64,000 bases of DNA. Source: Reyranella sp. CPCC 100927. GTDB lineage: Bacteria > Pseudomonadota > Alphaproteobacteria > Reyranellales > Reyranellaceae. The notes beneath the pieces are model-generated. The model was not told where the DNA came from. It did no database searches and worked only from the letters and a program-made list of their open reading frames with translations. Of this stretch, positions 4,996 through 60,209 are shown in pieces. Made by a program: the position numbers and the translations under genes. Position 1 is the first letter of the stretch. Each line of letters opens with the position of its first letter. The stretch covers positions 1-64,000 of the forward strand of contig NZ_VOHA01000026.1 of assembly GCF_007859315.1 (NCBI RefSeq), read 5' to 3'.

Positions 4996-6918
4996 ATGAA
5001 GGCAGAGGAGCAACGCAGCCCCAGCCTCTATTGGCTCCAGCAGCCGCCCGCCGACTGGCGGGCGCGCCTTGCTGATTTGTCGAAGTCAACCCCGGGTGAA
5101 GCAGCCTGGGCCGAGGCTGTAGCACTCGCCAACTATCGGCTCAATTTTCAACTGACCAATGCGCTGGCAACGACGGTGGCGCGGCTATTCCGCGATGCGC
5201 CCGATCAAATCCTGCAAACAAGACCCGAGCGCCTGGCGATACTGTCATCGTCGACGACAACGCATTTACACGCGAGCCTGCGGGTCGGCGCCCTGAGACG
5301 GGGGATTTGGCTCGATGTCTACGAGACCGAATACGACCAGTATCGCCAAGAACTGTTGGACATCACGTCGCCGCTTCATGCCTTTGCACCGAGCGCGATT
5401 CTTTTTGCGCTCGATGCACGGCATGTCACCCGCGGCGTTCAAGACTGCGGGACGCAGAGCCAAACGACGCAGGTTCTCGATGAACTTTGCGAGACCATGC
5501 AAAGCCTGTGGCGCATCGCGCAGGAACGTTTCGACTGCCCGGTAATACAGCAGACCGTTGTTCCCTCCCTATCGTCGCTGCTGGGCAACAACGAGCACCG
5601 GCATCCTGCATCGCCAGCAGCCTTCATCACAAAATTCAACAGCCGGCTACGTGATCTCAGCGAAGCCGCGGGGATTGATCTCCTCGCCCTCGATGCACGT
5701 ATCGCGCACGATGGCCTGATGGCGTGGCAGAATCCGTCCCTCTGGCTTCATGCCAAACAGGAAATTGCGCTACCCGCAGCCCCCATGTACGGGGACCTGG
5801 TCGGACGCCTGCTCGCCGCGCGGCAGGGTCGCAGTGCCAAGTGCTGCGTCCTCGATCTGGACAACACGCTTTGGGGTGGCGTGATCGGGGACGATCAGAT
5901 GGACGGGATCATTGTCGGCCAAGGCAGTGCGCTGGGTGAAGCGTTTGCCGGCGTCCAAAGCTACGCGCTGGCGTTGCGCCAACGCGGGATACTCCTGGCC
6001 GTTTGCTCCAAAAACGACGAGCGCGTCGCGCGTCAGCCCTTCGATGCACACCCCGATATGATCCTGAAGCACAACCATTTCGCCTGCTTCGTGGCGAACT
6101 GGGACGACAAGGCGACAAACATCCGCACGATTGCCCGGCAGCTGAACATCGGGCTCGATGCGCTCGTCTTCGTTGACGACAATCCGTTCGAACGTGAACT
6201 CGTTCGCCGCGAGTTGCCTATGGTTGCCGTACCGGAATTGCCGGAGGATCCGGCTCTCGTGCCACAGTGCCTGGCCGACGCCGGCTATTTCGAAACAGCA
6301 ACACTTACGGATGAGGATTTTCAGCGCGCCGCGTTCTATCGCAGCGATGCGGGCCACAGCCATGACACGGCATCGGCGACCGACCTGAATGGCTATCTCG
6401 CCGGTCTGGCGATGGATCTGAGATGGGCTCGGGTCGACCAGACAAGTCTTGGTCGAACCGTCCAGCTCATCAACAAGACGAACCAGTTCAACCTGACCAC
6501 CCGCCGCTATACGGAGGCACAGGTACGCGGATTCATGTCGCAACCGAATATTCTGAGCCTGCAGTTGCGTCTGGTCGATCGCTTTGGAGACAATGGTATC
6601 ATTGCTGTCGTCATCGGCCGGCTGGACGAACAATCGACAGTCGAGATCGACACTTGGCTCATGAGTTGCCGTGTCCTTGGCCGACAGGTCGAAGAGGCGA
6701 CCTTGAACATCGTGGTTGAAGCGGCCAGGCGAATCGGTGCGAAACGGCTCGTCGGCATCTATCGGCCAAGCCAAAAAAATGGAATGGTCAGCCGTCATTA
6801 CGAACGGCTGGGGTTTACGCCCCAGGGCGAACGGTCCGACGGCGTTGCGAGCGTTCTCGATCTCGATTCTTTTGTTCCCCGTGAGACGTTCATCCAGCTC
6901 AGCGAGGTTTCAGCGTGA
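4996..6918 (+). CDS. FkbH-like HAD-IIIC family protein
   Basis: A 640-residue protein of the FkbH family. The known members dephosphorylate 1,3-bisphosphoglycerate and load glycerate onto an acyl carrier protein. Residues about 1-270 form the N-terminal SGNH-like region. The HAD core has motif I DLDNTLWGG (287-295), motif II CSKND (337-341), Lys372 and the VFVDDNPFERE acidic motif (391-401), so the catalytic residues are present. The C-terminal part (about 440-640, with 'LINKTNQFNLTTRRY') resembles the acyltransferase-like tail of the family. Its stop overlaps the start of an acyl carrier protein (GTGA), so the two are translationally coupled and probable partners. The ribosome site is weak. 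Other members of the pathway are on the opposite strand. Confidence 0.9.
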   Translation: MKAEEQRSPSLYWLQQPPADWRARLADLSKSTPGEAAWAEAVALANYRLNFQLTNALATTVARLFRDAPDQILQTRPERLAILSSSTTTHLHASLRVGALRRGIWLDVYETEYDQYRQELLDITSPLHAFAPSAILFALDARHVTRGVQDCGTQSQTTQVLDELCETMQSLWRIAQERFDCPVIQQTVVPSLSSLLGNNEHRHPASPAAFITKFNSRLRDLSEAAGIDLLALDARIAHDGLMAWQNPSLWLHAKQEIALPAAPMYGDLVGRLLAARQGRSAKCCVLDLDNTLWGGVIGDDQMDGIIVGQGSALGEAFAGVQSYALALRQRGILLAVCSKNDERVARQPFDAHPDMILKHNHFACFVANWDDKATNIRTIARQLNIGLDALVFVDDNPFERELVRRELPMVAVPELPEDPALVPQCLADAGYFETATLTDEDFQRAAFYRSDAGHSHDTASATDLNGYLAGLAMDLRWARVDQTSLGRTVQLINKTNQFNLTTRRYTEAQVRGFMSQPNILSLQLRLVDRFGDNGIIAVVIGRLDEQSTVEIDTWLMSCRVLGRQVEEATLNIVVEAARRIGAKRLVGIYRPSQKNGMVSRHYERLGFTPQGERSDGVASVLDLDSFVPRETFIQLSEVSA

Positions 6919-7169
6919 TATCGGACCGCGAGATCTATGAGGGCCTGGCCGAGATTTTTGCCGATGTTTTCATGCGCGATGACATCCCGCTGTCCGCCGC
7001 GCTGAGCGCGGCCGACGTCGCGGATTGGGATTCGTTCAAGCAGATCGAGATCGTCATGGCGACCGAGGAACGCTTCGGCGTCAAATTCACATCGGCAGAG
7101 CTCGACAACATGCGGCAGCTCGGAGACCTCGTCCGCATCGTCGCGGCACGCGGAACGCCCCCTTCGTAG
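6915..7169 (+). CDS. Acyl carrier protein
   Basis: An 84-residue acidic carrier protein. The phosphopantetheine attachment serine is Ser40 in 'ADWDSFKQIEIV', the expected DS motif at the start of helix II, and 'EERFGVKF' follows as in family members. It starts with GTG at 6915, overlapping the FkbH-like stop codon as GTGA; this spacing and the absence of an alternative start decide the call. It is most likely the acceptor for the glyceryl or other acyl group loaded by the upstream HAD enzyme. It differs from housekeeping fatty-acid AcpP, which normally has DSLD at the attachment site. Confidence 0.9.
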   Translation: MISDREIYEGLAEIFADVFMRDDIPLSAALSAADVADWDSFKQIEIVMATEERFGVKFTSAELDNMRQLGDLVRIVAARGTPPS

Positions 7170-7184
7170 GCGCGTTCTGGCCGA

Positions 7185-7994
7185 TCAGCGACGCGCAAAC
7201 ACCGAAAAACAGGGTTCGTGCGGTGTTGGCGTGGTTTCATGCGCGATTTCCAGAGACGAAAAACCCAGAGCCCTCAGCGCATCGAGAATCGACGATCGGA
7301 TCATCCACCGCGGCTCGTTGTAGATGCCGCCGCAAAAGTCCGGGTTCAAATGGACCTGCTCGTAATCGCGCCGGTAGAGCGTTATCGTTTGGCCTCTGAA
7401 GGTTCGCGTCTCCCGCACGGCCTCCCATCGCTTCAGGGCGGGATCGCCAACAGGAAATGCCGTCGGATCGAGATAGGTCGTCCACAAATACAAGGCGTCG
7501 GTTCGAGCAGCGACGGCCTCCAGAAAACGCAGCGGATCGGCCATGTGATAGAGCACGCCGCACGCGACGATCAGATCGTATCGGTCCTCGGACTGCTCCA
7601 GAAACGGCACGCAGTCCCCGAGAAGAAACCTGGCTCTAGGAAGACCGACGATTTCCTTGGTCACCAGGCATTTCAGAAAGGCCGGCTTGCTGGCTTCGAT
7701 GGCCGTGATGTTCGCTCCCGCCCGATCCAGCAGATAGGTCTGTGCGCCTTCCAGGGGACCAAGCTCCAGCACATTGGCGCTCGCGACGGAACCGAACTGC
7801 GCCATCGCCCAAATGATGCGATCATCAGCGAAATTGACCCGGTTGCCGGCAATCAAACCGTATTCCGGCGGAAACTGACTGTTCCACCCCGGTATCGCGT
7901 CGATCGCGTTTTGGGCGCTGGGCGGTCGCGCTTCGTAGGTATCAAAAGGGACTTTCGGCTGCGTGACAGCGCCTTTGCCCTTCTTCCAGAACAT
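7185..7994 (-). CDS. Class I SAM-dependent methyltransferase
   Basis: A 269-residue cytoplasmic methyltransferase. Motif I is VLELGPLEGA (75-84), the acidic residue after beta 2 lies in 'ITAIEAS', and 'YDLIVACGVLYHMADPLRFL' covers motifs II-III. The closest kind of protein I can place is the Methyltransf_23/DUF1698-like group that appears in polysaccharide clusters. The start is uncertain: the ATG at 7994 has no ideal ribosome site, and a TTG two codons earlier lies ten bases after GGAG. It is convergent with the ACP gene (15-base gap) and begins the 3' end of a minus-strand run with the TPR protein and the hotdog/SDR fusion. Substrate unknown. Confidence 0.85.
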   Translation of the reverse strand: MFWKKGKGAVTQPKVPFDTYEARPPSAQNAIDAIPGWNSQFPPEYGLIAGNRVNFADDRIIWAMAQFGSVASANVLELGPLEGAQTYLLDRAGANITAIEASKPAFLKCLVTKEIVGLPRARFLLGDCVPFLEQSEDRYDLIVACGVLYHMADPLRFLEAVAARTDALYLWTTYLDPTAFPVGDPALKRWEAVRETRTFRGQTITLYRRDYEQVHLNPDFCGGIYNEPRWMIRSSILDALRALGFSSLEIAHETTPTPHEPCFSVFARR

Positions 7995-8041
7995 TCGCAA
8001 AATGGCGTCACTCCCTCGGTCGATGTCGACGGACTTGAGAT

Positions 8042-9562
8042 TTACGCGGCAGCAGCCACGCTTGAAGCATCAACCAGGCTCCTCACCTTGCGGCAGATGG
8101 CGAGCCAGTCCTCGAAGGCAATGTCCCAATCATTACCTGCCGTAACACCGGGGCGACGCAAATAACCAACGAACAGACCGCGATCGATCGACACAACCTC
8201 TCCGGCGCGACCGTCGGGGAAGCCCGCCGCATCCGCGGTGACGACTCTGGTGTGAAGAAGCTTGACCGGGCCGAACGTTTCGAGTGCCGCGTGAAGGGCG
8301 CGCAGGCCATCCATAGTCAGCGACTGACCTGTGAACACGAAAACCTTCCGCCCCTCCGCAAGGTCCGACAATAATTTGTCCTTCAGGTATGCAATCCGAC
8401 GACACAGCTTTTTGTAGAGAACGTCCGGGTCCTGTTGGCCCACGAAGAGAAACGTATGCATCGCCAGGCCCCACCGGCGATCCTGAATAAAGTATTCATT
8501 CATGAAGGGGACCATTTCGGTCGTGGCCGGCTCGCCCATATCCTGGAACTGGCTGGCCAGGGCCGTCAGCAGGCTGCCCAATTGAACGTTGTTGAAGCGC
8601 AACAAGCCGAGTGGTTCGGCGCCGAACCGGCGCTGCACCAAACCAAACTCACAATTTTCGCCAAGGCTCTCGAACCCCAGCAGAAGCGACCGCGCGTCCT
8701 CGTCTGCGACGACCTCAATTTTCTGTGGTGCCACCGGCCCGGCCGCTGCAGACGCGTCAGGCTCGCCAACTTTGCCGTCCGCGAGGGCGAGATCCCGGGC
8801 ATGCAGTGTGCGGCCATAATGCTCCCAGCCCATCTTGTCGCGGGGATATCGCCTGCGAAATTCGCTCCATAGCGCCAACGCCTCGTCCCAACGTTGTTGC
8901 GACGCAGTGCGCATCGCCTGCAACGCGAGGAACCCGCGATGACGGCGATGGCGCCGGGGTGCGGATTTCATAAATTGATCGAATTCATCGAAACGACTGA
9001 GAACAAAAAGTGTCTGCGCATACGCTGACATGGTTGATGCCGATGCGATCGGACGGTCGACCGCGCGCCGCCAGAGCCGTTCGCTCGCCGCCCAATCTCC
9101 CCGCATCTCCGCGATGCGAGCGGCTTCCCCGAGGACCGCCGCGTTGTTCGGGAACAGGCGCTGGGCTTCACCGATCACTTCTGACGCGTGGTCGAATTGC
9201 CCAAGCTCGCGGCTCAATCGCGCAATGCGACAGGGAATCCGTGGATTGCGACGCTTTTCCTTCCAGACTGCCATCCATCGTGCAAGAGCATCAGAAAGCC
9301 GGCCGTCTCTCTGAGCGTTCCAGGCATGATCGACGAGCAGTCCGTAGTGGGTCGGCTGAATGGAAAGCCCGAACTGCAGAACGACGTCCGCATCAGCTCG
9401 GCGATTCTGTTTGATCAGAACTCTTGCCGCGCCGCGAAGCCGGTAGGTGGCATACCACTTGCTCATCTGATCGCCGATGACCCGACGCCATGCTCCCTCC
9501 ACCATCGCAGAGCTTCGAGCCGGTATCGCGGCCAAGATATCGGCTGCGGACCAAGACTTCAT
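8042..9562 (-). CDS. TPR-repeat protein with C-terminal 'SLGENCEFG' domain
   Basis: A 506-residue protein without a signal peptide. The first about 270 residues are helical TPR-like repeats ('ALARWMAVWKEK', 'AAVLGEAARIAEMRGDWAASERLWRRAV', 'EALALWSEFRRRYP'). A low-complexity Ala/Pro linker leads to a C-terminal domain beginning 'GFESLGENCEFGLVQRRFGAEPLGLLRF', a Cys-containing motif of a group often annotated as DUF1796-type or papain-like cysteine peptidase-like; I infer this relation from memory of the motif. Such domains occur next to glycan-biosynthetic genes. It lies between the methyltransferase and the hotdog/SDR fusion on the same strand. Catalytic activity is unproven. Confidence 0.75.
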   Translation of the reverse strand: MKSWSAADILAAIPARSSAMVEGAWRRVIGDQMSKWYATYRLRGAARVLIKQNRRADADVVLQFGLSIQPTHYGLLVDHAWNAQRDGRLSDALARWMAVWKEKRRNPRIPCRIARLSRELGQFDHASEVIGEAQRLFPNNAAVLGEAARIAEMRGDWAASERLWRRAVDRPIASASTMSAYAQTLFVLSRFDEFDQFMKSAPRRHRRHRGFLALQAMRTASQQRWDEALALWSEFRRRYPRDKMGWEHYGRTLHARDLALADGKVGEPDASAAAGPVAPQKIEVVADEDARSLLLGFESLGENCEFGLVQRRFGAEPLGLLRFNNVQLGSLLTALASQFQDMGEPATTEMVPFMNEYFIQDRRWGLAMHTFLFVGQQDPDVLYKKLCRRIAYLKDKLLSDLAEGRKVFVFTGQSLTMDGLRALHAALETFGPVKLLHTRVVTADAAGFPDGRAGEVVSIDRGLFVGYLRRPGVTAGNDWDIAFEDWLAICRKVRSLVDASSVAAAA

Positions 9563-9718
9563 TCGACCGACCTACCCCCGAAAAATACCATGTCGCGCAA
9601 CGACACCAATCCTGTTCGCCTCTCTCACATCCCGCCCAGGATCTTGCCACCGCCAGCCAATTTGTTCTCTGGACGAGAAAAGAGCGGCAATTTTGCACTG
9701 TCTCCCTCAACGTTGCAA

Positions 9719-11203
9719 TCAGGTGGTCGACGTCGCGCGCGTCGCGACTTGGCCCGCCTGAATCTCCCGGATAATCGCGACCATCAGGTCGATCGGATCG
9801 GCCATCCTTTCCTCCACCAGAGAGGCCGTCTGATCCGTCGGCAGCCTGGGCAACCGGCGCATGACGATTCGACCCGATCTTTCGAAAGCCTGCATATCAG
9901 CGCACAAGAGCTCCCCCGCCGCCTTTGCCATGGCGTACTCCGTCATGTCGCGGGGGCGGGTGTCGACATATATCGATGACGGATAGAACATCGAAAAATC
10001 GGTTCCGTACTTTTGCCGGAGCGCAGCGTGCAGATCATAAAATCCTGACACATAGAACGCCAAAAACTCGTCCAAATACTTCTGCTGGAACAGCGACCGG
10101 CTTTGTCTAAAAATCTGCGGCGTTGCCATATAGTAAATCTGGTCCGGCATCCTCTCCAGGGATTGCAGCTGTCCATCAGCGGCAGCACGAACATCGTACC
10201 GCATGATCTCACAGCGGCCACCATGGCCCGCTATTTGCGCCTGTACTCCGTGGGCATCGGCTTCGCCGACAGAATAGGTCAGCGTGAGGTCTGCTCCGCC
10301 CACCGCAAGGATCTTGCCAATCAATTCGCCCAGCCCGCGCGTTCCGCCGATGACCAGTGCGGACGTGCCGCGAAATTCATCCCCAACCACCTTCGTTGCG
10401 ATCTCATCCATGGTTGGCTGTGACGTTGGCGGGGGCAACGCGTGGGCATCGAGAGAACCGTGCCATCCCGCTCCTGTAATGGCGAGTCGGACCAACCGAA
10501 AGCGCGGATCAGCGTGCGTGACGCTGAAATGCAGGCGATTGCCATCGGCGTTTGCGGGAGAGGTCGTGGCGAACTTGAGGCTGCGGTACATGGAATGGCG
10601 GCCGGGACAGATCATGCCAACAATGAAGCTTGAACACGCAAGCCCGGCAATTCTCTCTCCACCCAGTGCGCGCGCGGCGTAGGGAAAAAGCCGCACCACC
10701 GCCTCGGCCGGCGAAAAGAACGGCGCGCACCCCTGGTAATCGACCATGTCGTCAAAAGTCAGCGATATCGGTTCCCTGGGTTGAAACGCCTCTCCTCTGT
10801 CGCACGTCTCAGGGCTTGGCACCGGATGGCCAAAAACCAGACGTACGGTCACCGCCGTCCGCCCCTCACTCAACACGTCGAGACGTATGCCATCACGACT
10901 GCGATCGACCAGTACGGCGGACGTGCGCACGCCAAGATAAATCATCTTCTCAAATCTGACGCTGATCGAAGCGACAGCGGGAAGATCGGGAACCTGCTGA
11001 TACAGGCCATCGAGGGACCACAGCAGCGCGTGGATACCATGAACGACCGGCTGTCCGGCCAATGTTCGGCGGGCCGCCACGACATCCATGTGAATGGGGT
11101 TTCGGTCGCCCGAAGCGGCGGCAAACCGTTCCTGGTCAACAACGGTAAAAGACTTATCTGCGATCAGTGGCGCAGCCACACCATGCTCCGAACGAGACAC
11201 CAT
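9719..11203 (-). CDS. Double-hotdog (MaoC-like) dehydratase fused to SDR reductase
   Basis: A 494-residue fusion. Residues about 15-130 are a MaoC-type hotdog with the hydratase motif FAAASGDRNPIH (27-38; Asp33, His38). Residues about 145-255 look like a second hotdog half ('VGMICPGRHSMY', 195-206). Residues 280-494 are a short-chain dehydrogenase: nucleotide-binding GGTRGLG (286-292), Ser409/410, Tyr423 and Lys427 in YAMAK. The two chemistries, 3-ketoacyl reduction and 3-hydroxyacyl dehydration, would act in sequence on a thioester. Start: the ATG at 11203, with a GTG four codons upstream as alternative; no clear ribosome site. The nearby ACP and FkbH-like genes suggest an ACP-bound substrate. 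This domain order is unlike standard FabG or FabZ. Confidence 0.85.
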   Translation of the reverse strand: MVSRSEHGVAAPLIADKSFTVVDQERFAAASGDRNPIHMDVVAARRTLAGQPVVHGIHALLWSLDGLYQQVPDLPAVASISVRFEKMIYLGVRTSAVLVDRSRDGIRLDVLSEGRTAVTVRLVFGHPVPSPETCDRGEAFQPREPISLTFDDMVDYQGCAPFFSPAEAVVRLFPYAARALGGERIAGLACSSFIVGMICPGRHSMYRSLKFATTSPANADGNRLHFSVTHADPRFRLVRLAITGAGWHGSLDAHALPPPTSQPTMDEIATKVVGDEFRGTSALVIGGTRGLGELIGKILAVGGADLTLTYSVGEADAHGVQAQIAGHGGRCEIMRYDVRAAADGQLQSLERMPDQIYYMATPQIFRQSRSLFQQKYLDEFLAFYVSGFYDLHAALRQKYGTDFSMFYPSSIYVDTRPRDMTEYAMAKAAGELLCADMQAFERSGRIVMRRLPRLPTDQTASLVEERMADPIDLMVAIIREIQAGQVATRATSTT

Positions 11204-11254
11204 GAGACGGGGCACTATACGCCCCGACGGGCGCCTCCACCAACGGCTACGCTT

Positions 11255-12793
11255 TCACTCAAACCGCAGGTTATATGGTCGCAGGTCCATGAAATAGAAC
11301 GTGTAGGGCCGCCACTTCACCTGCTTGCGCACGGCGTAGAACTCGGCCGGCTGGTAGAGGACGGTGCCGGGCGCTTCGTCTTCCCAGGCGTCGAGCATGC
11401 GGGCGAAGAATGCGCGGCGGCGGGCTGGATCGGTCTCGCCCTCAAGAGCCGTACCGGCAGCATTGAAGGCCGCCACCGAGGTCCACGCCTTGCGGCCCTG
11501 CAGTGGACCGCCCGGCCCCCAGGTGAGCCACAGCGCGCCCGCCGGGTCGGGCAGTCGCGTCGAGTTCGACCAGTTGCCGACCTGCGCGCCGGATGCCTGC
11601 ATCTGGCTGAAATTCTCGACCACCTGCAGGTCGGCGTTGATGCCGACGGCCTTCCACATCTCGATCATCACCTGCGCCGCTTTCAGCGCATTGGTGTAGT
11701 AGTGCGGCATGGTGCGGTAGGTGATCTTCTCGCCCTTGTAAGCGGCCTCCTTCAACAGCCGCCTGGCCTCGGCCGGATCGTACCGCGTCTGGCGGTCGGG
11801 CAGGTACATGGCGCCAAATTCCGGGAAGTTGTGGCTGCGCGGCACCACGGCAGTGCCATCCCACAGCGTGTCGACCAGCAGCTGCCGGTCAATGGCCAGC
11901 GCAAGCGCCTGGCGGATGCGCTTATCGCCCATCGCCACGCCGCGCTCGTCGAACGTCAGCATGTGGACGTTGGCCAACACCACCGAGCGCACCTCGACCT
12001 CGGGCTTGCGTTTGAGGATGCCGACCTGGTCCGGTGGCACGTTGGTGATCATGTCGACATCGCCGCTCTGCAACGCGGCGATGCGCCCGGCCAGCTCCGG
12101 GATCTTGCGAAACGTCACGGCGCGCGCCGTCGGCTTGCCGTCCCAGTAGTCGTCGAAGGCGTCGAGCACGATGCGGTCATCGGTGCGCAATTCGCGCACC
12201 TTGTAGGGTCCCGTCCCCACCGGCGCCCGCGAGAAGCCATCAAAGCCCAGCGCCTCGTAGGCGCGCTTGTTGACGATCCAGGCGCACCACGACGCCAGCC
12301 GCTGCTCCAGCAGCACGTCGGGTACCCGCGTGCGGAATCGCACGGTATGGGGATCGATGGCCTCGACCGATTCCAGGGACGGAAAGTAGGTCCTGGCTTC
12401 CGGCATCCAAGGCTTGTCGCCGAACATGCGCTGCGAGGTGAACGTGTAGACGACGTCATCGGCGGTGAACACATCGCCGTTGTGGAAGCGCACGTCGGGT
12501 CGCAGGCTGACGATCAATTCCTGCGGGCTGACGCGGGTCCAGCTTTTGGCGAGACCGGGTACCAACGCAGCCCCGCCGCCGTCAGGCGCGCTCAGGAAGT
12601 CGCGCCGGATCAGGGTGTCGAAGATCGAATACGTGACGCGCGTGCCGACGTTGCTGAGCTCGCGCGCCGGCTCAAGCGTTGGTGGCAGGTCGGCGACACC
12701 GATGGTCAAGGTTGGGCGCGGATCGGCCGCGGCGGTGGTGCCGAACACGGCCGCCATGAGCAGCACACAGGCGGTCATCAAGGTTCGCAGCAT
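11255..12793 (-). CDS. ABC transporter substrate-binding protein, family 5 (downstream copy)
   Basis: Periplasmic oligopeptide/dipeptide-type binding protein of 512 residues (SBP_bac_5). The signal peptide is MLRTLMTACVLLMAAVFG followed by TTAAA-D. Family features include 'SNVGTRVTYSIFDTLIRRDF', 'DVRFHNGDVFTADDVVYTF', 'APVGTGPYKVRELRTDDRIVLDAFDDYWDGKP' and 'DKRIRQALALAIDRQLLVDTLW'. The ATG at 12793 has GGAG six bases upstream; the open frame continues upstream only as a shadow of the permease. It is the last gene of the opp-like operon and a paralog of the binding protein at 16956-18590, so the importer may use two receptors of different specificity. The substrate could be a peptide or another amphipathic solute. 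Confidence 0.9.
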   Translation of the reverse strand: MLRTLMTACVLLMAAVFGTTAAADPRPTLTIGVADLPPTLEPARELSNVGTRVTYSIFDTLIRRDFLSAPDGGGAALVPGLAKSWTRVSPQELIVSLRPDVRFHNGDVFTADDVVYTFTSQRMFGDKPWMPEARTYFPSLESVEAIDPHTVRFRTRVPDVLLEQRLASWCAWIVNKRAYEALGFDGFSRAPVGTGPYKVRELRTDDRIVLDAFDDYWDGKPTARAVTFRKIPELAGRIAALQSGDVDMITNVPPDQVGILKRKPEVEVRSVVLANVHMLTFDERGVAMGDKRIRQALALAIDRQLLVDTLWDGTAVVPRSHNFPEFGAMYLPDRQTRYDPAEARRLLKEAAYKGEKITYRTMPHYYTNALKAAQVMIEMWKAVGINADLQVVENFSQMQASGAQVGNWSNSTRLPDPAGALWLTWGPGGPLQGRKAWTSVAAFNAAGTALEGETDPARRRAFFARMLDAWEDEAPGTVLYQPAEFYAVRKQVKWRPYTFYFMDLRPYNLRFE

Positions 12794-45231: not shown

Positions 45232-46836
45232 ATGACATCCGGCGACACACCTGCCTCCCTGCCGGAAATCGCACCGGCGCTGGAACGCACGGCAGCGCAG
45301 TACGATGCGATTCCCTACCAGTCGAAACCTTTTCCATCGACCCACCCGGCGCGGTTGGCGGCGATCGGCAAGCTGTTCGACCTGACGCCGCCACCTCTGC
45401 GCACCGCGCGCATCCTGGAGATCGGCTGCGCCGCCGGCGGCAACATCATTCCCCTGGCGGCCCACCTGCCCGACGCCACGTGCCTGGGCATCGACCTGTC
45501 GGGCGTGCAGATCGAGCAGGGCCAGCGGCGCGCCGAGAGCATGGGCCTGGGCAACGTCACGCTGCGGCAACAGAGCGTCACCGAGATCGGGCCCGATGAC
45601 GGACCGTTCGACTACATCATCTGCCATGGCGTCTACAGCTGGGTACCGGCCACGGTGCGCGAAGCGATCCTGCGGGTGTGCGGCGAGCGCCTGAGCGACA
45701 ACGGCATGGCCATCGTCAGCTACAACGTGATGCCGGGCTGGCACATGAAGCTGGTGGTCCGCGACTCGATGATCGCCCATGCGGCGCACATACCGGATCC
45801 GTCGCAGAAGGCAGCCCAGGCACGCTGGTTCATCGACCTCCTGAAGGACCGCGTGTCCAAGGAAACGCCGTACGGCAACGCGCTGCGCACCGAGCTGGAG
45901 CATATTGCCGACCTGCGCGACGACTACGTGATGCACGAGTTCCTCGAGGACGAGAACAACCCCTGCACCGTCACCGAGTTCGTGCGCGCCGCCGAGCGGG
46001 CCCGGCTGAGCTACCTCGGCGATACGCAGCTGCACACCATGATCGCCGACGGCTATGGCGAGGCGACGGCGGCGGCGCTGCAGCAGCTGTCGCGCAATCG
46101 CCTGCTGGCGCATGAGCAGTACATCGACATCATCACCGGCCGCACCTTCCGGCAATCGATCCTGGTGAAGGCCGCCACCATGGGCCCGGTACAGCGTCCC
46201 CTCAACCCGCGACGCTTGATGGACCTGCATGTCGCGGCCCAGCTCACGATGACACCGGGACCGGAGGGCAGCGGCAAGCGTACCTACCGCGACCGCACCG
46301 CTCGTACGCTCACGACCGACAGCGCCACGGTGCATGCCGCGCTGGATGCGTTGATGGCGCGCTACCCGGGTACCGTGACGCCGGCCGAGTTGATCGAGGC
46401 CGCCGCCCCGGCGGAGGCAGCCCGGCACGACACCGCCGTGTTCGATGCGCTGGGCGAGATGATGAATGCCGGGATGCTGGACTTCTACATCGAGCCCTTG
46501 CGCGTCGGTTCCGCCGATACCCGGCGTCCGACGGCCATTGCGCTGGCCCGTTTCGATGCCGCGCACGGCGCGTCGTTGACCGCCAACCTGCGGCACGAGG
46601 AGGTATCCCTCGACATCTCGGGGCAGCTGCTGGTGCCCTTGCTCGACGGTACGCGCGACCGCGAGGCCCTGTGCACCGATCTGCTGCAGGCCATGGCCGG
46701 CCGCGACATGCAGCTCAAGCAGGACGACGCGCCGATCACCGAGCCTGACGCGCAGCGCGACGCCGCGTTGCAGCTGATCGACTTTCTGTTGACATCGCTG
46801 GCGGCCGGCGCCCTGCTGCAGGCCGATTCGGCGTGA
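45232..46836 (+). CDS. PKMT-like methyltransferase with regulatory domain, tandem copy 1
   Basis: A 534-residue protein built like the rickettsial protein-lysine methyltransferases PKMT1/2: a class I SAM domain with motif I ILEIGCAAGGN (61-71), 'CLGIDLSGVQIEQGQRRAE' and 'FDYIICHGVYSWVPATVREAIL', then the MethyTransf_Reg domain ('PGWHMKLVVRDSM...HAAHIPDPSQKA', 'HEFLEDENNPCTVTEFV') and a C-terminal winged-helix-type part ('GTRDREALCTDLLQAM'). PKMTs methylate outer-membrane protein lysines; the target here is unknown. It lies 66 bases before a second gene that is co-linear and highly similar over its whole length. Confidence 0.9.
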   Translation: MTSGDTPASLPEIAPALERTAAQYDAIPYQSKPFPSTHPARLAAIGKLFDLTPPPLRTARILEIGCAAGGNIIPLAAHLPDATCLGIDLSGVQIEQGQRRAESMGLGNVTLRQQSVTEIGPDDGPFDYIICHGVYSWVPATVREAILRVCGERLSDNGMAIVSYNVMPGWHMKLVVRDSMIAHAAHIPDPSQKAAQARWFIDLLKDRVSKETPYGNALRTELEHIADLRDDYVMHEFLEDENNPCTVTEFVRAAERARLSYLGDTQLHTMIADGYGEATAAALQQLSRNRLLAHEQYIDIITGRTFRQSILVKAATMGPVQRPLNPRRLMDLHVAAQLTMTPGPEGSGKRTYRDRTARTLTTDSATVHAALDALMARYPGTVTPAELIEAAAPAEAARHDTAVFDALGEMMNAGMLDFYIEPLRVGSADTRRPTAIALARFDAAHGASLTANLRHEEVSLDISGQLLVPLLDGTRDREALCTDLLQAMAGRDMQLKQDDAPITEPDAQRDAALQLIDFLLTSLAAGALLQADSA

Positions 46837-46902: not shown

Positions 46903-48513
46903 ATGACGTCCGCCGACACGCCCACCCTCTCGCCTGAAGTCGCGCCGGCACTGGCGCGCACGGCAGCGCAATACGACGAGGTGCCCTACCAGTCGCACCC
47001 CTTCCCGCTGACCCATCCGGCACGGCTGGCGGCCATCGCCGCCCTGTTCGGCCTGTCGCCGCCTGAAGTGCGCACCGCGCGCATCCTGGAGATCGGCTGC
47101 GCCGCCGGCGGCAACATCATCCCGATGGCCATGCACCTGCCGGACTCGACGTGCCTGGGCATCGACCTGTCGGGCGTGCAGATCGAGCAGGCGCAGCGGC
47201 GCGCCGATGGCCTTGATTTGCGCAACCTCACGCTGCGGCGCCAGAGCGTCACGGAGATCGGCCCCGATGACGGGCCGTTCGATTACATCATCTGCCATGG
47301 CGTCTACAGCTGGGTGCCGGCCACGGTACGCGAGGCGATCCTGCGGGTGTGCGCCGAGCGCCTGAGCGACGACGGCGTCGCCATCGTCAGCTACAACGTG
47401 ATGCCCGGCTGGCACATGAAGCGCGTGGTGCGCGACTCGATGATCGCCCATGCCGCCCACATTCCCGACCCGTCGCAGAAGATTGCCCAGGCGCGCTGGT
47501 TCATCGAGTTCCTGAAGGACCGCGTGCCGCAGCAGACGCCGTACGGCAACGCCCTGCGCACCGAGGCCGGCTTTCTCGCCAACCAGCGCGACGATTACGT
47601 GCTGCACGAGTTCCTCGAGGACGAGAACAACCCGTGCACCGTCACCGAGTTCGTGCTGGGCGCCGAGAAACTGGGCCTGGGCTACCTCGGCGAAACCGAG
47701 CTGCACACCATGATCGCCGAGACCTACGGCCAGGAGATCGCGGTGGCGCTGCGCCAGCTGTCGGACAACCGCCTGCTGCCGCTGGAGCAATACATCGACA
47801 TCCTGACCGGCCGCACCTTCCGGCAGTCGGTCCTGGCCAAGGCGGCGACCGCCGCCCGGGCCCAGCGGGCACTCGATACCCATCGGCTGCAGCAGCTGCA
47901 TGTCGCCGGCCGCTTCACGCCCGACAGCGCGACCGGCAAGAATGGCGCCCGGGTGTTCCGCGACAGCAGCGGCCGCACGCTGACGTCCGACAGCCCTGGC
48001 GTGGCCGTTGCCGTGGAAATGCTGAGCGCCCGCTATCCGGCGACGGCGACGCCGGCCGAGCTCGCCGCCACGGCCGGCCGCTGGGCCGCATCGCCCGCGG
48101 CGCAGGAGGCGGCGGTCATCGACGCGCTCTACCGTATGCTGAACGCCGGCATGCTCGACTACTACATCGAGCCGGTCCGCACCGGCAGTGCCAGCGCCGC
48201 GCGACCGCAGGCCACGGCGTTGGCGCGCTACGACGCGGCACAACGCGTGACCTGGACCGCCAACCTGCGGCACGAGCCGGCGGCGATCGCGCCCGCCGGT
48301 CACCTGCTGCTGCCGCTGATGGATGGCACGCGCGACCGCGACGCGCTGTGCACCGGCCTTCTGCAGGCCCTGGCTGACAGCGGCACCAACCTGCAGCGCG
48401 ACGGCCAGCCCATCTCCGGCGACGACGAGCGCCGACGCGCCGCCCTGGAGCTGATCGAGACGACACTGCAGACCTTGGAGAAGACCGCGCTGCTGGAGCC
48501 GGACGCAGGGTGA
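46903..48513 (+). CDS. PKMT-like methyltransferase with regulatory domain, tandem copy 2
   Basis: A 536-residue paralog of the preceding gene with the same domain order and near-identical SAM region ('ILEIGCAAGGNIIPMAMHLPDSTCLGIDLSGVQIEQ', 'GPFDYIICHGVYSWVPATVREAILRVCAERLSDDG'). Divergence is concentrated in the middle and C-terminal thirds ('HRLQQLHVAGRFTPDSATGKNGARVFRDSSGRTLTSDS'), where target specificity is likely decided. The conserved first third and diverged last third point to duplication followed by specialisation. Both copies keep the SAM-binding glycines, so both are likely active. Confidence 0.9.
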   Translation: MTSADTPTLSPEVAPALARTAAQYDEVPYQSHPFPLTHPARLAAIAALFGLSPPEVRTARILEIGCAAGGNIIPMAMHLPDSTCLGIDLSGVQIEQAQRRADGLDLRNLTLRRQSVTEIGPDDGPFDYIICHGVYSWVPATVREAILRVCAERLSDDGVAIVSYNVMPGWHMKRVVRDSMIAHAAHIPDPSQKIAQARWFIEFLKDRVPQQTPYGNALRTEAGFLANQRDDYVLHEFLEDENNPCTVTEFVLGAEKLGLGYLGETELHTMIAETYGQEIAVALRQLSDNRLLPLEQYIDILTGRTFRQSVLAKAATAARAQRALDTHRLQQLHVAGRFTPDSATGKNGARVFRDSSGRTLTSDSPGVAVAVEMLSARYPATATPAELAATAGRWAASPAAQEAAVIDALYRMLNAGMLDYYIEPVRTGSASAARPQATALARYDAAQRVTWTANLRHEPAAIAPAGHLLLPLMDGTRDRDALCTGLLQALADSGTNLQRDGQPISGDDERRRAALELIETTLQTLEKTALLEPDAG

Positions 48514-56952: not shown

Positions 56953-57579
56953 CTACGGCGCCTTGTGCGGCGCGGGAGCCCACGGCGGATGGATGCGGAC
57001 ACCAGGGGAAATCAGCTTCTCGTTCCGTCCAATCCCCGCGTATAGCGGTTCGGCTTGGACAATCGTGACCATGCGCGCGATGTCGCGCAAATCGATGGAA
57101 GTGCCGAAACCCTGCGGAACATGAAGATTGTATGTGTACGCAAACTGCGAGATCGATTGCAGGGTCCTCTTGCTGTCGGGCGTGTTCGCCATCTCCTGGG
57201 ACCGGTCACCGACAAATGGCCGGGTGTTGTTCCACATCAGCAGATATGTGAACTCAGCAAGGTAGGCGGCAACCTCGCCTTCCAGACGCGTCGTGCCTGG
57301 CGCGTTGATGTCGATCAATGCGTGCGTGCATTCATGAATGATGTCCCGGCGAACGCGGACGTCCAGCGGTGAATCCCCTGCCAGCTCGATCGTATTCGGG
57401 CCGGGACGGTAGAGTGCGCCATTCCGGGCCGGAGCGACCGTGATATCGCCGGTTTGGAGGTGATCCACGACCTTTCCGTACTCGGCGGCCGATAGCGATA
57501 CCCGTCCAACCCGGAAGTTCATGCGCTTGACCAGGGGATCCTGCAGAACGTCGATGACATCAGTGTGGGTGATCGGCAT
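56953..57579 (-). CDS. Putative HEXXH metallopeptidase, unknown family
   Basis: A 208-residue protein with a zinc-binding HECTH motif (82-86, in 'RRDIIHECTHALIDI') and Glu100/102 in 'LEGEVAAYLAEF' about 16-20 residues later, the gluzincin-like arrangement HEXXH...E. There is no signal peptide. The rest ('QSISQFAYTYNLHVPQGFGTSIDLRDIARM') matches no family I recognise. The ATG at 57579 has GAGG seven bases upstream; a longer frame begins at 57744 but lacks a ribosome site. It is divergent from a second zinc-peptidase-like gene, and codon use seems less GC-biased than in neighbours. It may be a structural peptidase homolog rather than an active enzyme. Confidence 0.7.
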   Translation of the reverse strand: MPITHTDVIDVLQDPLVKRMNFRVGRVSLSAAEYGKVVDHLQTGDITVAPARNGALYRPGPNTIELAGDSPLDVRVRRDIIHECTHALIDINAPGTTRLEGEVAAYLAEFTYLLMWNNTRPFVGDRSQEMANTPDSKRTLQSISQFAYTYNLHVPQGFGTSIDLRDIARMVTIVQAEPLYAGIGRNEKLISPGVRIHPPWAPAPHKAP

Positions 57580-57867
57580 CGCGCAACCTCGATCGCGTTC
57601 ACTATCGCCTGAGCCGGAGGCACAGGCGCCTTCCGCCGTGCTGGTGCGAGAGCATGGCCAACGTTCGCGCTCACGCGATACTGCCATTTGGTAGCGATCG
57701 ACACTGCTGCGTCCACTTCTGACGATCAAATCGCTCGTGATCACGCGATACCAGCCGCCCTGAGTGCCGTACTACCGTTTGGAAATATCCTCCGACAGAC
57801 GATCGCGCACATCATGACCTCGACGGCACCACGCCTTTGACTCAACGCGGTGCCGCGGAGATCCGTG

Positions 57868-58779
57868 ATGCAAGTCATCTATTCCCCCGTGCCTCTCCTC
57901 TCCACGACGGTTCGCACGCCCATGCTTGGCGGGATGTCGGCGCTTTTCGACGCTGCCCTTTACAAGCCATTGATGGGAGGACAGCTCAAGCTCACGATCC
58001 ATCTCAAAATCAGGCTGGTGCCGCTGGCGCCAACCGGCCTTGATCTTCCTGACAACACGGGCCAACGCTTCGTCACGTCACCCTGGAACCCGGACGAGTG
58101 GCAGAAGTTCGTTGCCTCCGCGGCGGCGCAGGCGAACATGTGGAACAACAGATTCTGGCTGGTGCCACCACATACGTTCTTTGAATTCGATGTGGTAAAG
58201 CCGCCGAACTCATCCTATCGCCCCAACATTCGTTGCGAACTGGCGGTCGATTTCATGCCGCGTAAAGGTACCGAGCATACATCCGTCCTCGTGATGCATC
58301 TCGATGAGAGCCGCCTCGCGCCCCCCAAGGATGGGGGTTCTTTCGGTTCGGCCGCTTTACTGTGGGATTCGCTGGATGGTGTTCCGTCCCTCAACCCGTA
58401 CTCGGGATCGCCGACGTCGTTGTCGTATACGATCGCTCACGAAATAGGCCATCTGCTGGGCCTCGAGCACATCGGCGTGATGATGACGACAAAGGCCTGC
58501 ATCCGCTCGCTCCTGCATCGCCTTCAAGGCACGCCCGACGACCGCGTGGATCGTCTTGAAGCAGGCGGCGAACATTCTCTCTACTGCTACGGTCTGGGCC
58601 TATCGCGACAAGGAAAGCCGATGGGCGCCAACGTCATGGGCATGGGGAGCGACTTCACGTTCGAAAACGCCAGCCCCTGGGTCAGGGCGATCCGATTGAT
58701 GCGCGAGCGATGGTTCGAACCGTGGCGCGTAACGTTGACTGATCCAGGTCCAGGAACATGGATCGTGCCGCAGCGGTGA
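57868..58779 (+). CDS. Putative metzincin-type zinc metallopeptidase
   Basis: A 303-residue protein with the full metzincin motif HEIGHLLGLEH (191-201; His191, Glu192, His195, His201) and a candidate Met-turn 'NVMGMG' (255-260) about 55 residues later. The N-terminal 170 residues have no known domain; 'WNNRFWLVPPHTFFEFDVV' and 'CELAVDFMPRKGTEHTSVLVMHLDE' look like beta strands of the upper subdomain. No signal peptide, unlike secreted metzincins. The ATG at 57868 has GGAG seven bases upstream. It is divergent from the HECTH gene with a 288-base gap and convergent with the cyclase gene. An effector or phage-associated role is possible, but unsupported. Confidence 0.75.
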   Translation: MQVIYSPVPLLSTTVRTPMLGGMSALFDAALYKPLMGGQLKLTIHLKIRLVPLAPTGLDLPDNTGQRFVTSPWNPDEWQKFVASAAAQANMWNNRFWLVPPHTFFEFDVVKPPNSSYRPNIRCELAVDFMPRKGTEHTSVLVMHLDESRLAPPKDGGSFGSAALLWDSLDGVPSLNPYSGSPTSLSYTIAHEIGHLLGLEHIGVMMTTKACIRSLLHRLQGTPDDRVDRLEAGGEHSLYCYGLGLSRQGKPMGANVMGMGSDFTFENASPWVRAIRLMRERWFEPWRVTLTDPGPGTWIVPQR

Positions 58780-58802
58780 CCGGGTGATGTCCAAAAGCGC
58801 AT

Positions 58803-60209
58803 CTAGGCGTCGCAACTATCGCAAACGCCTGCCCCGACAATGTCGACAGGCCGATCGAATCCTCTGAGCGCGTGTTTGCCGAACGCGCGGCAGGGAATGC
58901 CCGCGGCCTGGGCCAGATCGGCGGTCATGAGCATGGTGGCGCCAAGGTCCTTGGCGAGAGCCTGCAGGCGAGCGGCGCGGTTCACCGGTGTGCCGATGAT
59001 CGTGAACGAGAAGCGGCCCGCCGAGCCGATGTTGCCGTGAACGACTTCGCCGATGTCGATACCGATCCGAGCCCGCAGCGGCGGCCGTGACCGGCGGTCG
59101 GGCATGGCGTTCAATGCTTCCAGGGCCCGCAGTCCTTCGAGGGCGGCTTTTGTCGCGACGGCACAGAGATGTGCCTCGCGTTGCGCCTCGGCGATCGGGA
59201 AGAACATGACGACGGCATCGCCGACATGGCCCGACACCTGTCCGCCTGCCCGCGACACCGGCCGCGTCATCGTCTCGAAGAAGAGATTGAGATGATCGAT
59301 GAGCGAACGGGCATCCAGCCGCTCGGTCAGGTTGGTGAATTCCACCAGATCGCAATAAAGGACAACGGCCCGAATCTGTTCGACCGCACCGAGGCTCACG
59401 CGTCCATCGAGCAGGGCTGTCGCGGCATTGCGCCCCAGATAGGTCTGCAGCAGACCGCGCGCAGCGGCGGCATTCAGCCGCGCGCCCAACGCAAGGGCAA
59501 AGACCGGTGTCACGAGCCGCAGCAGGTCAATCTCCGCGGCAGTGAATCCGCCGGGTCGCTCGGTGCTGAACAGGCTCATGACATCATCGAAAAAGCCCAG
59601 CGTCGCGTCAGGCGCGAGATGGTTTGCGAAGGCCACGGCATCCGTCGCGCCGCCTTGCAGGACAGGCGCGAACAGATTGTTTCGAGCGTTGCGTAGAGAC
59701 GATGTCGGCCCCTCTCCGCCCGCGTCAGCGGGGGGAGAGGGAGGGGCCCATCGCGCCAGCGATGGGAGGGTGAGGTGGGCGTTGGATCCAAACTCGGTTG
59801 CGCTTGGGCCGACTCGTTCGCCCCCGGCACCCACCTCACCCTCCCATGCCTGCGGCATGGGCCCCTCCCTCTCCCCCCACTGCGTGGGGGGAGAGGGAGA
59901 CCGGAGGACCGTCCAGCCCTCCTCCAGCATGAGCTGGAAGATTCCGGCAGCGAGGATGTTGCCATCGGTGCCGCCGACAACCCGGCGCCACCGCATGACG
60001 TGCTGGGCCCGCTCAGGATCAACGACGTCGCAGGCGACTTCGATCGCGGCGACGTCGAGACCGGCCGCCGTCAGCGTGGTGCCCAGAACCACGACAAGGT
60101 CGATGTCGCTGACGCCGTTGAGGGCCGCCGTCACGAGCGCCTGGCTTATCCGGGAGAGCGCACCCGATGCAGGCGACGCCGGCGATGCGCAGCAGCCGAC
60201 CATGTTCAT
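58803..60209 (-). CDS. Class III adenylate/guanylate cyclase with repeat-derived insert
   Basis: A 468-residue protein with an N-terminal sensor-like region, a GAF-like part (about 185-250, 'GFTAAEIDLLRLVTPVFALALGARL') and a C-terminal class III cyclase domain (about 278-468). Metal-binding aspartates are Asp287 in 'VVLYCDLVEFTNLTERLD' and Asp331 in 'GHVGDAVVMFF', followed by 'RIGIDIGEVVHGNIGSAGRFSFTIIGTPVNRAARLQ'. Residues about 104-169 are encoded by a 192-bp inserted palindromic element. The ATG at 60209 lies one base after the O-methyltransferase stop. The product, cAMP or cGMP, cannot be told from sequence. It probably forms an operon with the O-methyltransferase. Confidence 0.88.
   Translation of the reverse strand: MNMVGCCASPASPASGALSRISQALVTAALNGVSDIDLVVVLGTTLTAAGLDVAAIEVACDVVDPERAQHVMRWRRVVGGTDGNILAAGIFQLMLEEGWTVLRSPSPPTQWGEREGPMPQAWEGEVGAGGERVGPSATEFGSNAHLTLPSLARWAPPSPPADAGGEGPTSSLRNARNNLFAPVLQGGATDAVAFANHLAPDATLGFFDDVMSLFSTERPGGFTAAEIDLLRLVTPVFALALGARLNAAAARGLLQTYLGRNAATALLDGRVSLGAVEQIRAVVLYCDLVEFTNLTERLDARSLIDHLNLFFETMTRPVSRAGGQVSGHVGDAVVMFFPIAEAQREAHLCAVATKAALEGLRALEALNAMPDRRSRPPLRARIGIDIGEVVHGNIGSAGRFSFTIIGTPVNRAARLQALAKDLGATMLMTADLAQAAGIPCRAFGKHALRGFDRPVDIVGAGVCDSCDA
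59709..59900. repeat. 192-bp composite palindrome inserted in frame in the cyclase gene
   Basis: Nested inverted repeats (CCCCTCTCC...GGAGAGGG ends; GGGCCCATCGCGCCAGCGATGGG-like and CCCATGCCTGCGGCATGGG stems in the arms; CCACCTCACCCTCCC against GGGAGGGTGAGGTGG) form an element of the same design as the intergenic composites at 50841 and 53483. 192 is a multiple of three, and no stop codon is created in the minus-strand frame. Confidence 0.85.

Follow-up and report, generated by a model that had tools for sequence, protein, structure and literature searches.

Lactyl, glyceryl, and methylglyceryl groups occur on bacterial glycans, and to our knowledge the way in which they are activated is largely unknown. 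FkbH-family enzymes load a glyceryl group from 1,3-bisphosphoglycerate (PMC4979870, PMC8949500), and the chemistry that loads glyceryl onto an acyl carrier protein (ACP) has been described for tetronates (PMC4979870). Related loading modules have already been published: that of OocJ has the order DH-MT-FkbH-ACP (PMC4552970), and a pathway reconstruction uses the rule that an FkbH module yields D-lactate-ACP (PMC7901079). FkbH-linked glycan loci have been published as well, in that Campylobacter jejuni decorates its flagellar pseudaminic acid with dimethylglyceric acid, and the locus for its flagellar glycan includes an FkbH-domain gene (PMC7099621). Here we examine a five-gene island in Reyranella sp. 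CPCC 100927, located in the first 64,000 nucleotides of contig NZ_VOHA01000026.1 (the window). The island encodes an FkbH-like enzyme, an ACP, a methyltransferase, a tetratricopeptide repeat (TPR) protein with an SLGxNCEFG (SLG) domain, and a fusion of a hotdog domain and a predicted second one with a short-chain dehydrogenase/reductase (SDR). An initial annotation had regarded this composition as lacking precedent, a view that does not hold because the FkbH, ACP, and fusion components recur elsewhere as the loading module of polyketide synthases (PKSs).

The conserved core of the island is this trio of FkbH, ACP, and double-hotdog/SDR fusion, and not the set of five genes. Scanning of genome contigs with a profile of the fusion yielded 18 independent full-length loci (L040–L057) that span Acidobacteriota, Gemmatimonadota, Lentisphaerales, Opitutales, Nitrospinae, Desulfobacterales, Sphingobacteriales, and the alpha- and betaproteobacteria. 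An FkbH gene lies within 10 kb of the fusion in 17 of these loci, with L052 as the exception, and a profile-recognized ACP is present in 13. Two other entries, L138 and L139, duplicate the L123 plasmid and the L057 contig, respectively, and were left out of the counts. Among 385 alphaproteobacterial genomes, the fusion was found in three, each time close to FkbH. The fact that FkbH occurs in only 35 of the 385 genomes, yet accompanies the fusion at 17 of the 18 loci, excludes chance as the origin of the trio. No homologue of the fusion was found in phage records. The initial annotation had treated all five genes as one pathway whose members should co-occur in other genomes. Our gene-neighborhood search found no second genome with all five, and thus the five-gene pathway fails that annotation's own test.

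Two trans-acyltransferase PKSs, both on plasmids, begin with hotdog-SDR, FkbH, ACP, and ketosynthase (KS) in a single chain and retain the catalytic motifs. These are encoded by Streptomyces anulatus (L124:9986-) and Ensifer canadensis (L125:9947-), and the fused trio is their loading module. The placement of the trio ahead of the KS therefore shows that the three parts act on one ACP-bound starter. At most trio loci no KS is adjacent, which leaves the FkbH product as the substrate in sight for the hotdog and SDR domains. It might be argued from the PKS starter modules, and from the fact that FkbH with ACP is a hallmark of tetronate and glycolytic-extender pathways, that the product of the island is a small soluble compound, tetronate-like or a hydroxyacyl amide, rather than a glycan decoration. 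We regard this as improbable. Between the TetR gene that flanks the island on one side and the peptide-transporter genes on the other, there are no genes for a KS, KAS III, PKS, nonribosomal peptide synthetase (NRPS), adenylation (A) domain, amide synthase, MBOAT, or glycosyltransferase, which bears out the earlier statement that PKS, NRPS, and glycosyltransferase are absent. Moreover, most sister trios accompany acyltransferases and glycan genes.

The FkbH protein of the window scores 302 bits against TIGR01686 (cut-off 146.65), and its N-terminal part matches FkbH_N (PF21211). The motifs DLDNTxWGG, SKN, DDN, and MSCRVL, the last including its Cys, are invariant across eight aligned homologues, and the nearest relatives are those of L047 (57% identity) and L161 (55%). 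The ACP matches the PP-binding family (PF00550) at 26.4 bits against a cut-off of 20.8, keeps the WDS motif, and can be aligned with ACPs from other cassettes; in an ACP tree it was not placed. The stop codon of FkbH overlaps the GTG start of the ACP gene (GTGA), and the two genes are therefore probably translationally coupled. These results confirm that the island holds an FkbH enzyme with intact catalytic motifs and an ACP of its own, as the initial annotation had proposed.

The fusion protein was likewise correctly recognized as a dehydratase/reductase. Its MaoC match (PF01575) scores 49.9 bits against a cut-off of 27, D37 and H42 of this first hotdog domain are invariant across 21 homologues, and the domain matches the (R)-enoyl-CoA hydratase structure 1iq6 with an E value of 1e-14. 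The Pfam adh_short score is 18.2 bits, under the 26.6 cut-off, and the SDR assignment is made from motifs and structure matches: GGTRGLG is present, S413, Y427, and K431 are invariant or nearly so in the same 21 homologues, and the domain matches SDR and FabG-like structures (best E value 2e-17). An AlphaFold2 model of the fusion (pLDDT 88.2, pTM 0.84) also retrieved SDR structures with Foldseek (best E value 6e-12). Residues 161 to 259 of the model form helices followed by four long strands, a predicted second hotdog whose role is probably structural.

From the domain order and the intact active sites, a route from glycolysis to an ACP-bound hydroxy acid can be proposed. By the chemistry of its family, FkbH would take the glyceryl group of 1,3-bisphosphoglycerate, dephosphorylate it, and load it onto the dedicated ACP. 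Glyceryl-ACP is at once an alpha- and a beta-hydroxyacyl thioester. The hotdog domain would then remove the C3 hydroxyl as water, giving an enol that tautomerizes to pyruvyl-ACP, and the SDR domain would reduce pyruvyl-ACP to lactyl-ACP. The D-lactate starter of bryostatin is a lead in the same direction. We consider it somewhat likely that the trio makes lactyl-ACP.

Alternatively, the delivered unit could be glyceryl or O-methylglyceryl, with FkbH loading glycerate, the methyltransferase methylating it, the SLG protein transferring it, and the hotdog-SDR protein using another acyl group. Such a scheme would fit locus L161, where FkbH, ACP, and the SLG protein are present in a genome from which the full-length fusion is absent, as well as the plasmid FkbH-ACP cassettes that lack the fusion and often include a methyltransferase. 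It would also fit suomilide and varlaxin, in which FkbH-loaded glycerate is methylated, and the C. jejuni glycan. Against it, fusion and FkbH are neighbors almost everywhere and form one chain in the PKSs, and the window methyltransferase does not belong to the family of methyltransferases associated with FkbH, to which its sequence is unrelated. On balance we find the glyceryl scheme rather unlikely.

The methyltransferase, like the TPR protein, is an accessory outside the conserved core, and its probable substrate is the acyl unit or the glycan. On plasmids, the methyltransferase has its nearest homologues in rhizobia (45–49% identity), and a 45% homologue is located inside a Shinella capsule cluster. 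The separate family of methyltransferases found beside FkbH-ACP elsewhere (L182:6679-7614, L181:9957-10925, L054:6860-7768, and L032:4210-5148) has a mutual identity of 32–42%, and is a candidate for a glycerate O-methyltransferase.

The proposal of the initial annotation that an ACP-bound three-carbon unit is destined for a surface glycan receives indirect support from the surroundings of related loci. Genes for MBOAT proteins neighbor the trio at L032, L033/L053, L046, L051, L054, L055, and L059, GNAT proteins are encoded near the trio at L043, L049, and L050, a hexapeptide transferase at L041, and Acyl_transf_3 at L051, whereas WcbI stands beside the trio at L123, a Niveispirillum plasmid. 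The MBOAT, GNAT, or WcbI proteins may carry out acyl transfer in these sister cassettes. Contexts recognized by eye often place relatives of the trio among glycosyltransferase, NeuB, Wzc, or Rkp capsule genes. Four plasmids carry FkbH-ACP cassettes without hotdog-SDR, three of them with MBOAT: Rhodobacteraceae SC52 (L180), Paroceanicella (L181), Tistrella (L182), and Sinorhizobium meliloti pSymB (L183), where the cassette adjoins Rkp-type capsule export genes. Because of the acyltransferase neighbors, the glycan contexts, these plasmid FkbH-ACP-MBOAT sets, and the C. jejuni locus, a surface glycan is our best guess for the target, and a reasonably probable one. In Desertibaculum (L057:13469-14551 and nearby), the trio is accompanied by a NeuB-like synthase and a polysaccharide deacetylase, both recognized by eye, a context that suggests an acylated nonulosonic acid.

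If the acyl group is passed to a glycan, the SLGxNCEFG domain would move it, by way of its invariant Cys, onto a polysaccharide or glycoconjugate; this is the weakest step of the scheme. Homologous domains occur in Reyranella, Azospirillum, Paracoccus, and IMG/VR contigs, and GxNCExGxVxR, including the Cys, is invariant in 11 SLG proteins. For the window domain there was no match in Pfam. The best of its relatives reached DUF1796 (PF08795) below threshold, at 12.0 bits versus a gathering score of 23, and an hhalign comparison with DUF1796, for which the template profile held only two sequences, returned 91.9% with an E value of 7e-7 over 182 columns and SLGxxC in register. By these comparisons, the SLG domain appears to be a divergent DUF1796 relative. 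WcbI was also considered as a sequence relative and found no support (hhalign 0.2%, using a single WcbI sequence).

SLG genes adjoin an ACP gene in 5 of 11 loci (the window, L161, L121, L122, and L140), with FkbH included in the window and L161. In L140 the SLG gene is upstream of the ACP. Two Reyranella-type genomes (L121, positions 9159-12277, and L122) have an SLGxNCEFG gene followed by ACP and an AMP-ligase, a set that is possibly a second acyl-ACP system sharing the SLG domain. In an FkbH tree, the window groups with L161, L047, and the WcbI cassette L123, separate from the MBOAT cassettes (95/94), which is consistent with the SLG protein as a stand-in transferase. We tentatively assign acyl transfer to the SLG domain, with its Cys as the putative catalytic residue. 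A somewhat more doubtful arrangement has the SLG protein as an adaptor or regulator and leaves the transfer to an MBOAT or some other enzyme whose gene lies outside the island. The TPR domains suggest scaffolding, SLG proteins occur without ACP too, and no MBOAT lies beside the island, with the rest of the genome not searched for one. The strict invariance of the GxNCE Cys in all 11 proteins and the grouping of the window FkbH with cassettes that lack MBOAT speak for a transferase instead.

Taken together, the island can be read, with due caution and at somewhat less than even confidence, as a cassette in which a three-carbon hydroxy acid is built on an ACP and then passed to a surface glycan. 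Several observations weigh against this. Inspection of the 95.9-kb contig by eye revealed neither a glycosyltransferase nor an export gene. The SLG model (pLDDT 73), when compared with PDB folds, gave background-level matches only, with papain and WcbI unlisted, and 6 of the 11 SLG loci have no ACP nearby. We found no explicit description of a MaoC-type domain that removes the C3 hydroxyl from glyceryl-ACP. Finally, genome G584 has FkbH, ACP, and SLG but no full-length fusion, and therefore lactyl conversion is not required for transfer. The genes and their motifs, the conserved trio, its fused loading-module form, and the swapping of transferases among cassettes are established here.

Inspection of the open reading frames of the window found all five intact at positions 4996-11215, including the methyltransferase, TPR/SLG, and fusion genes that the initial annotation had placed facing FkbH-ACP. 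These three are tightly packed on the minus strand and converge on the ACP gene, with a 15-bp gap between the convergent ACP and methyltransferase genes.

Table 1. Genes and protein domains of the Reyranella sp. CPCC 100927 island (window positions)
Feature	Position	Strand	Details
FkbH-like glyceryl transferase/phosphatase	4996..6918	+	640 aa; DLDNT residues 287-291; Cys558 in MSCRVL
Acyl carrier protein	6915..7169	+	84 aa; GTG start; phosphopantetheine Ser40 in WDSF
Class I S-adenosylmethionine (SAM) methyltransferase	7185..8000	-	271 aa; PF13489 and PF08241 above cut-off
TPR protein with C-terminal SLGxNCEFG domain (SLGENCEFG in the window)	8042..9562	-	506 aa; TPR_14, TPR_19
SLGxNCEFG domain, residues 285-496	8077..8710	-	Cys304 at 8651-8653
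Double-hotdog/SDR fusion	9719..11215	-	498 aa; possible starts ATG at 11203, GTG at 11215
First hotdog, MaoC-type dehydratase, residues 17-128	10832..11167	-	PF01575; D37/H42 pair
Second hotdog-like domain, residues 161-259	10439..10735	-	Model secondary structure
SDR/ketoreductase domain, residues 281-490	9746..10375	-	GGTRGLG, S413, Y427, K431

The G+C content of the five-gene stretch is 58–62%, versus 64–70% over most of the window, and FkbH, the full-length fusion, and the SLG protein are all missing from the three congeners examined. An empty-site test in these congeners failed, as the genes that flank the island are not syntenic there, and the case for horizontal acquisition therefore rests on G+C content and patchy distribution. 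The island was probably acquired from another bacterium. That it is a recently acquired, decaying fragment with no function in its host is very improbable: such a fragment might have the low G+C content, the absence from congeners, and the lack of a glycan cluster on the contig seen here, but the five frames are intact, the catalytic residues are conserved, and the genes are tightly packed, all of which argues otherwise. Elsewhere in the window, a second low-G+C patch (about 60%) at positions 57001-59000 holds two open reading frames with a composition unlike their surroundings. Two methyltransferase-like paralogues of 534 and 536 aa are encoded side by side at positions 45232-46833 and 46903-48510; their N-termini are nearly identical, and the pair is a tandem duplication.

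For the activation of such groups, the trio offers a testable route that starts from a glycolytic intermediate and runs through an ACP, recognizable in the genomes of many phyla and paired with interchangeable transferases. It likewise provides an initial clue to what SLGxNCEFG proteins do, and similarity extends this clue to DUF1796, a family to which no function is assigned. More speculatively, a widespread and undescribed route from 1,3-bisphosphoglycerate to lactyl-ACP might supply bacterial surface glycans with lactyl groups, and SLGxNCEFG/DUF1796-like proteins might form a new family of cysteine-dependent acyl-ACP:glycan acyltransferases, a combination that we hold to be possible and not probable.

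Among known systems, FkbH loading in tetronate and glycolytic-extender pathways resembles the island in pairing a dedicated ACP with an FkbH-family enzyme whose HAD motifs and Cys are intact. The island differs in having the hotdog/SDR fusion and SLG protein and in lacking a polyketide partner or the KAS III-like enzyme that stands beside FkbH and ACP in tetronate pathways. By its published description, the C. jejuni flagellin glycan locus (cj1302; PMC7099621) is similar in having an FkbH gene in an acylated-surface-glycan locus with a glycerate derivative, and it differs in its product, pseudaminic acid that bears dimethylglyceric acid. For the SLG domain, the nearest family is DUF1796, a putative papain-like cysteine peptidase family with which it shares the SLGxxC motif and a co-linear profile match, whereas the below-cut-off Pfam score, the NCEFG signature, and the TPR fusion set it apart.

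Closer to the island as a whole are the FkbH-ACP-MBOAT/SGNH cassettes near capsule or polysaccharide genes (L183, L182, L180, and L033 of Reyranella). These share its FkbH and ACP families, and O-acylation of a surface polymer is probable for them, as for the island, but the island has no adjacent MBOAT and its FkbH belongs to another clade. The Niveispirillum FkbH-ACP-WcbI-hotdogSDR operon (L123) shares the trio, with an FkbH that is 50% identical, and a soluble Cys-containing putative transferase; this is WcbI (PF18588) where the island has the SLG domain, and the comparison with a single WcbI sequence showed no link between the two. The dehydratase-reductase-FkbH-ACP loading modules of L124 and L125 have the same three components and motifs as the island. 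In those PKSs the components are fused with a KS, whereas in the island they are separate genes on two strands without a KS, and the product is presumably transferred rather than elongated. Thus, the island trio works like a hotdogSDR-FkbH-ACP loading module but is not one.

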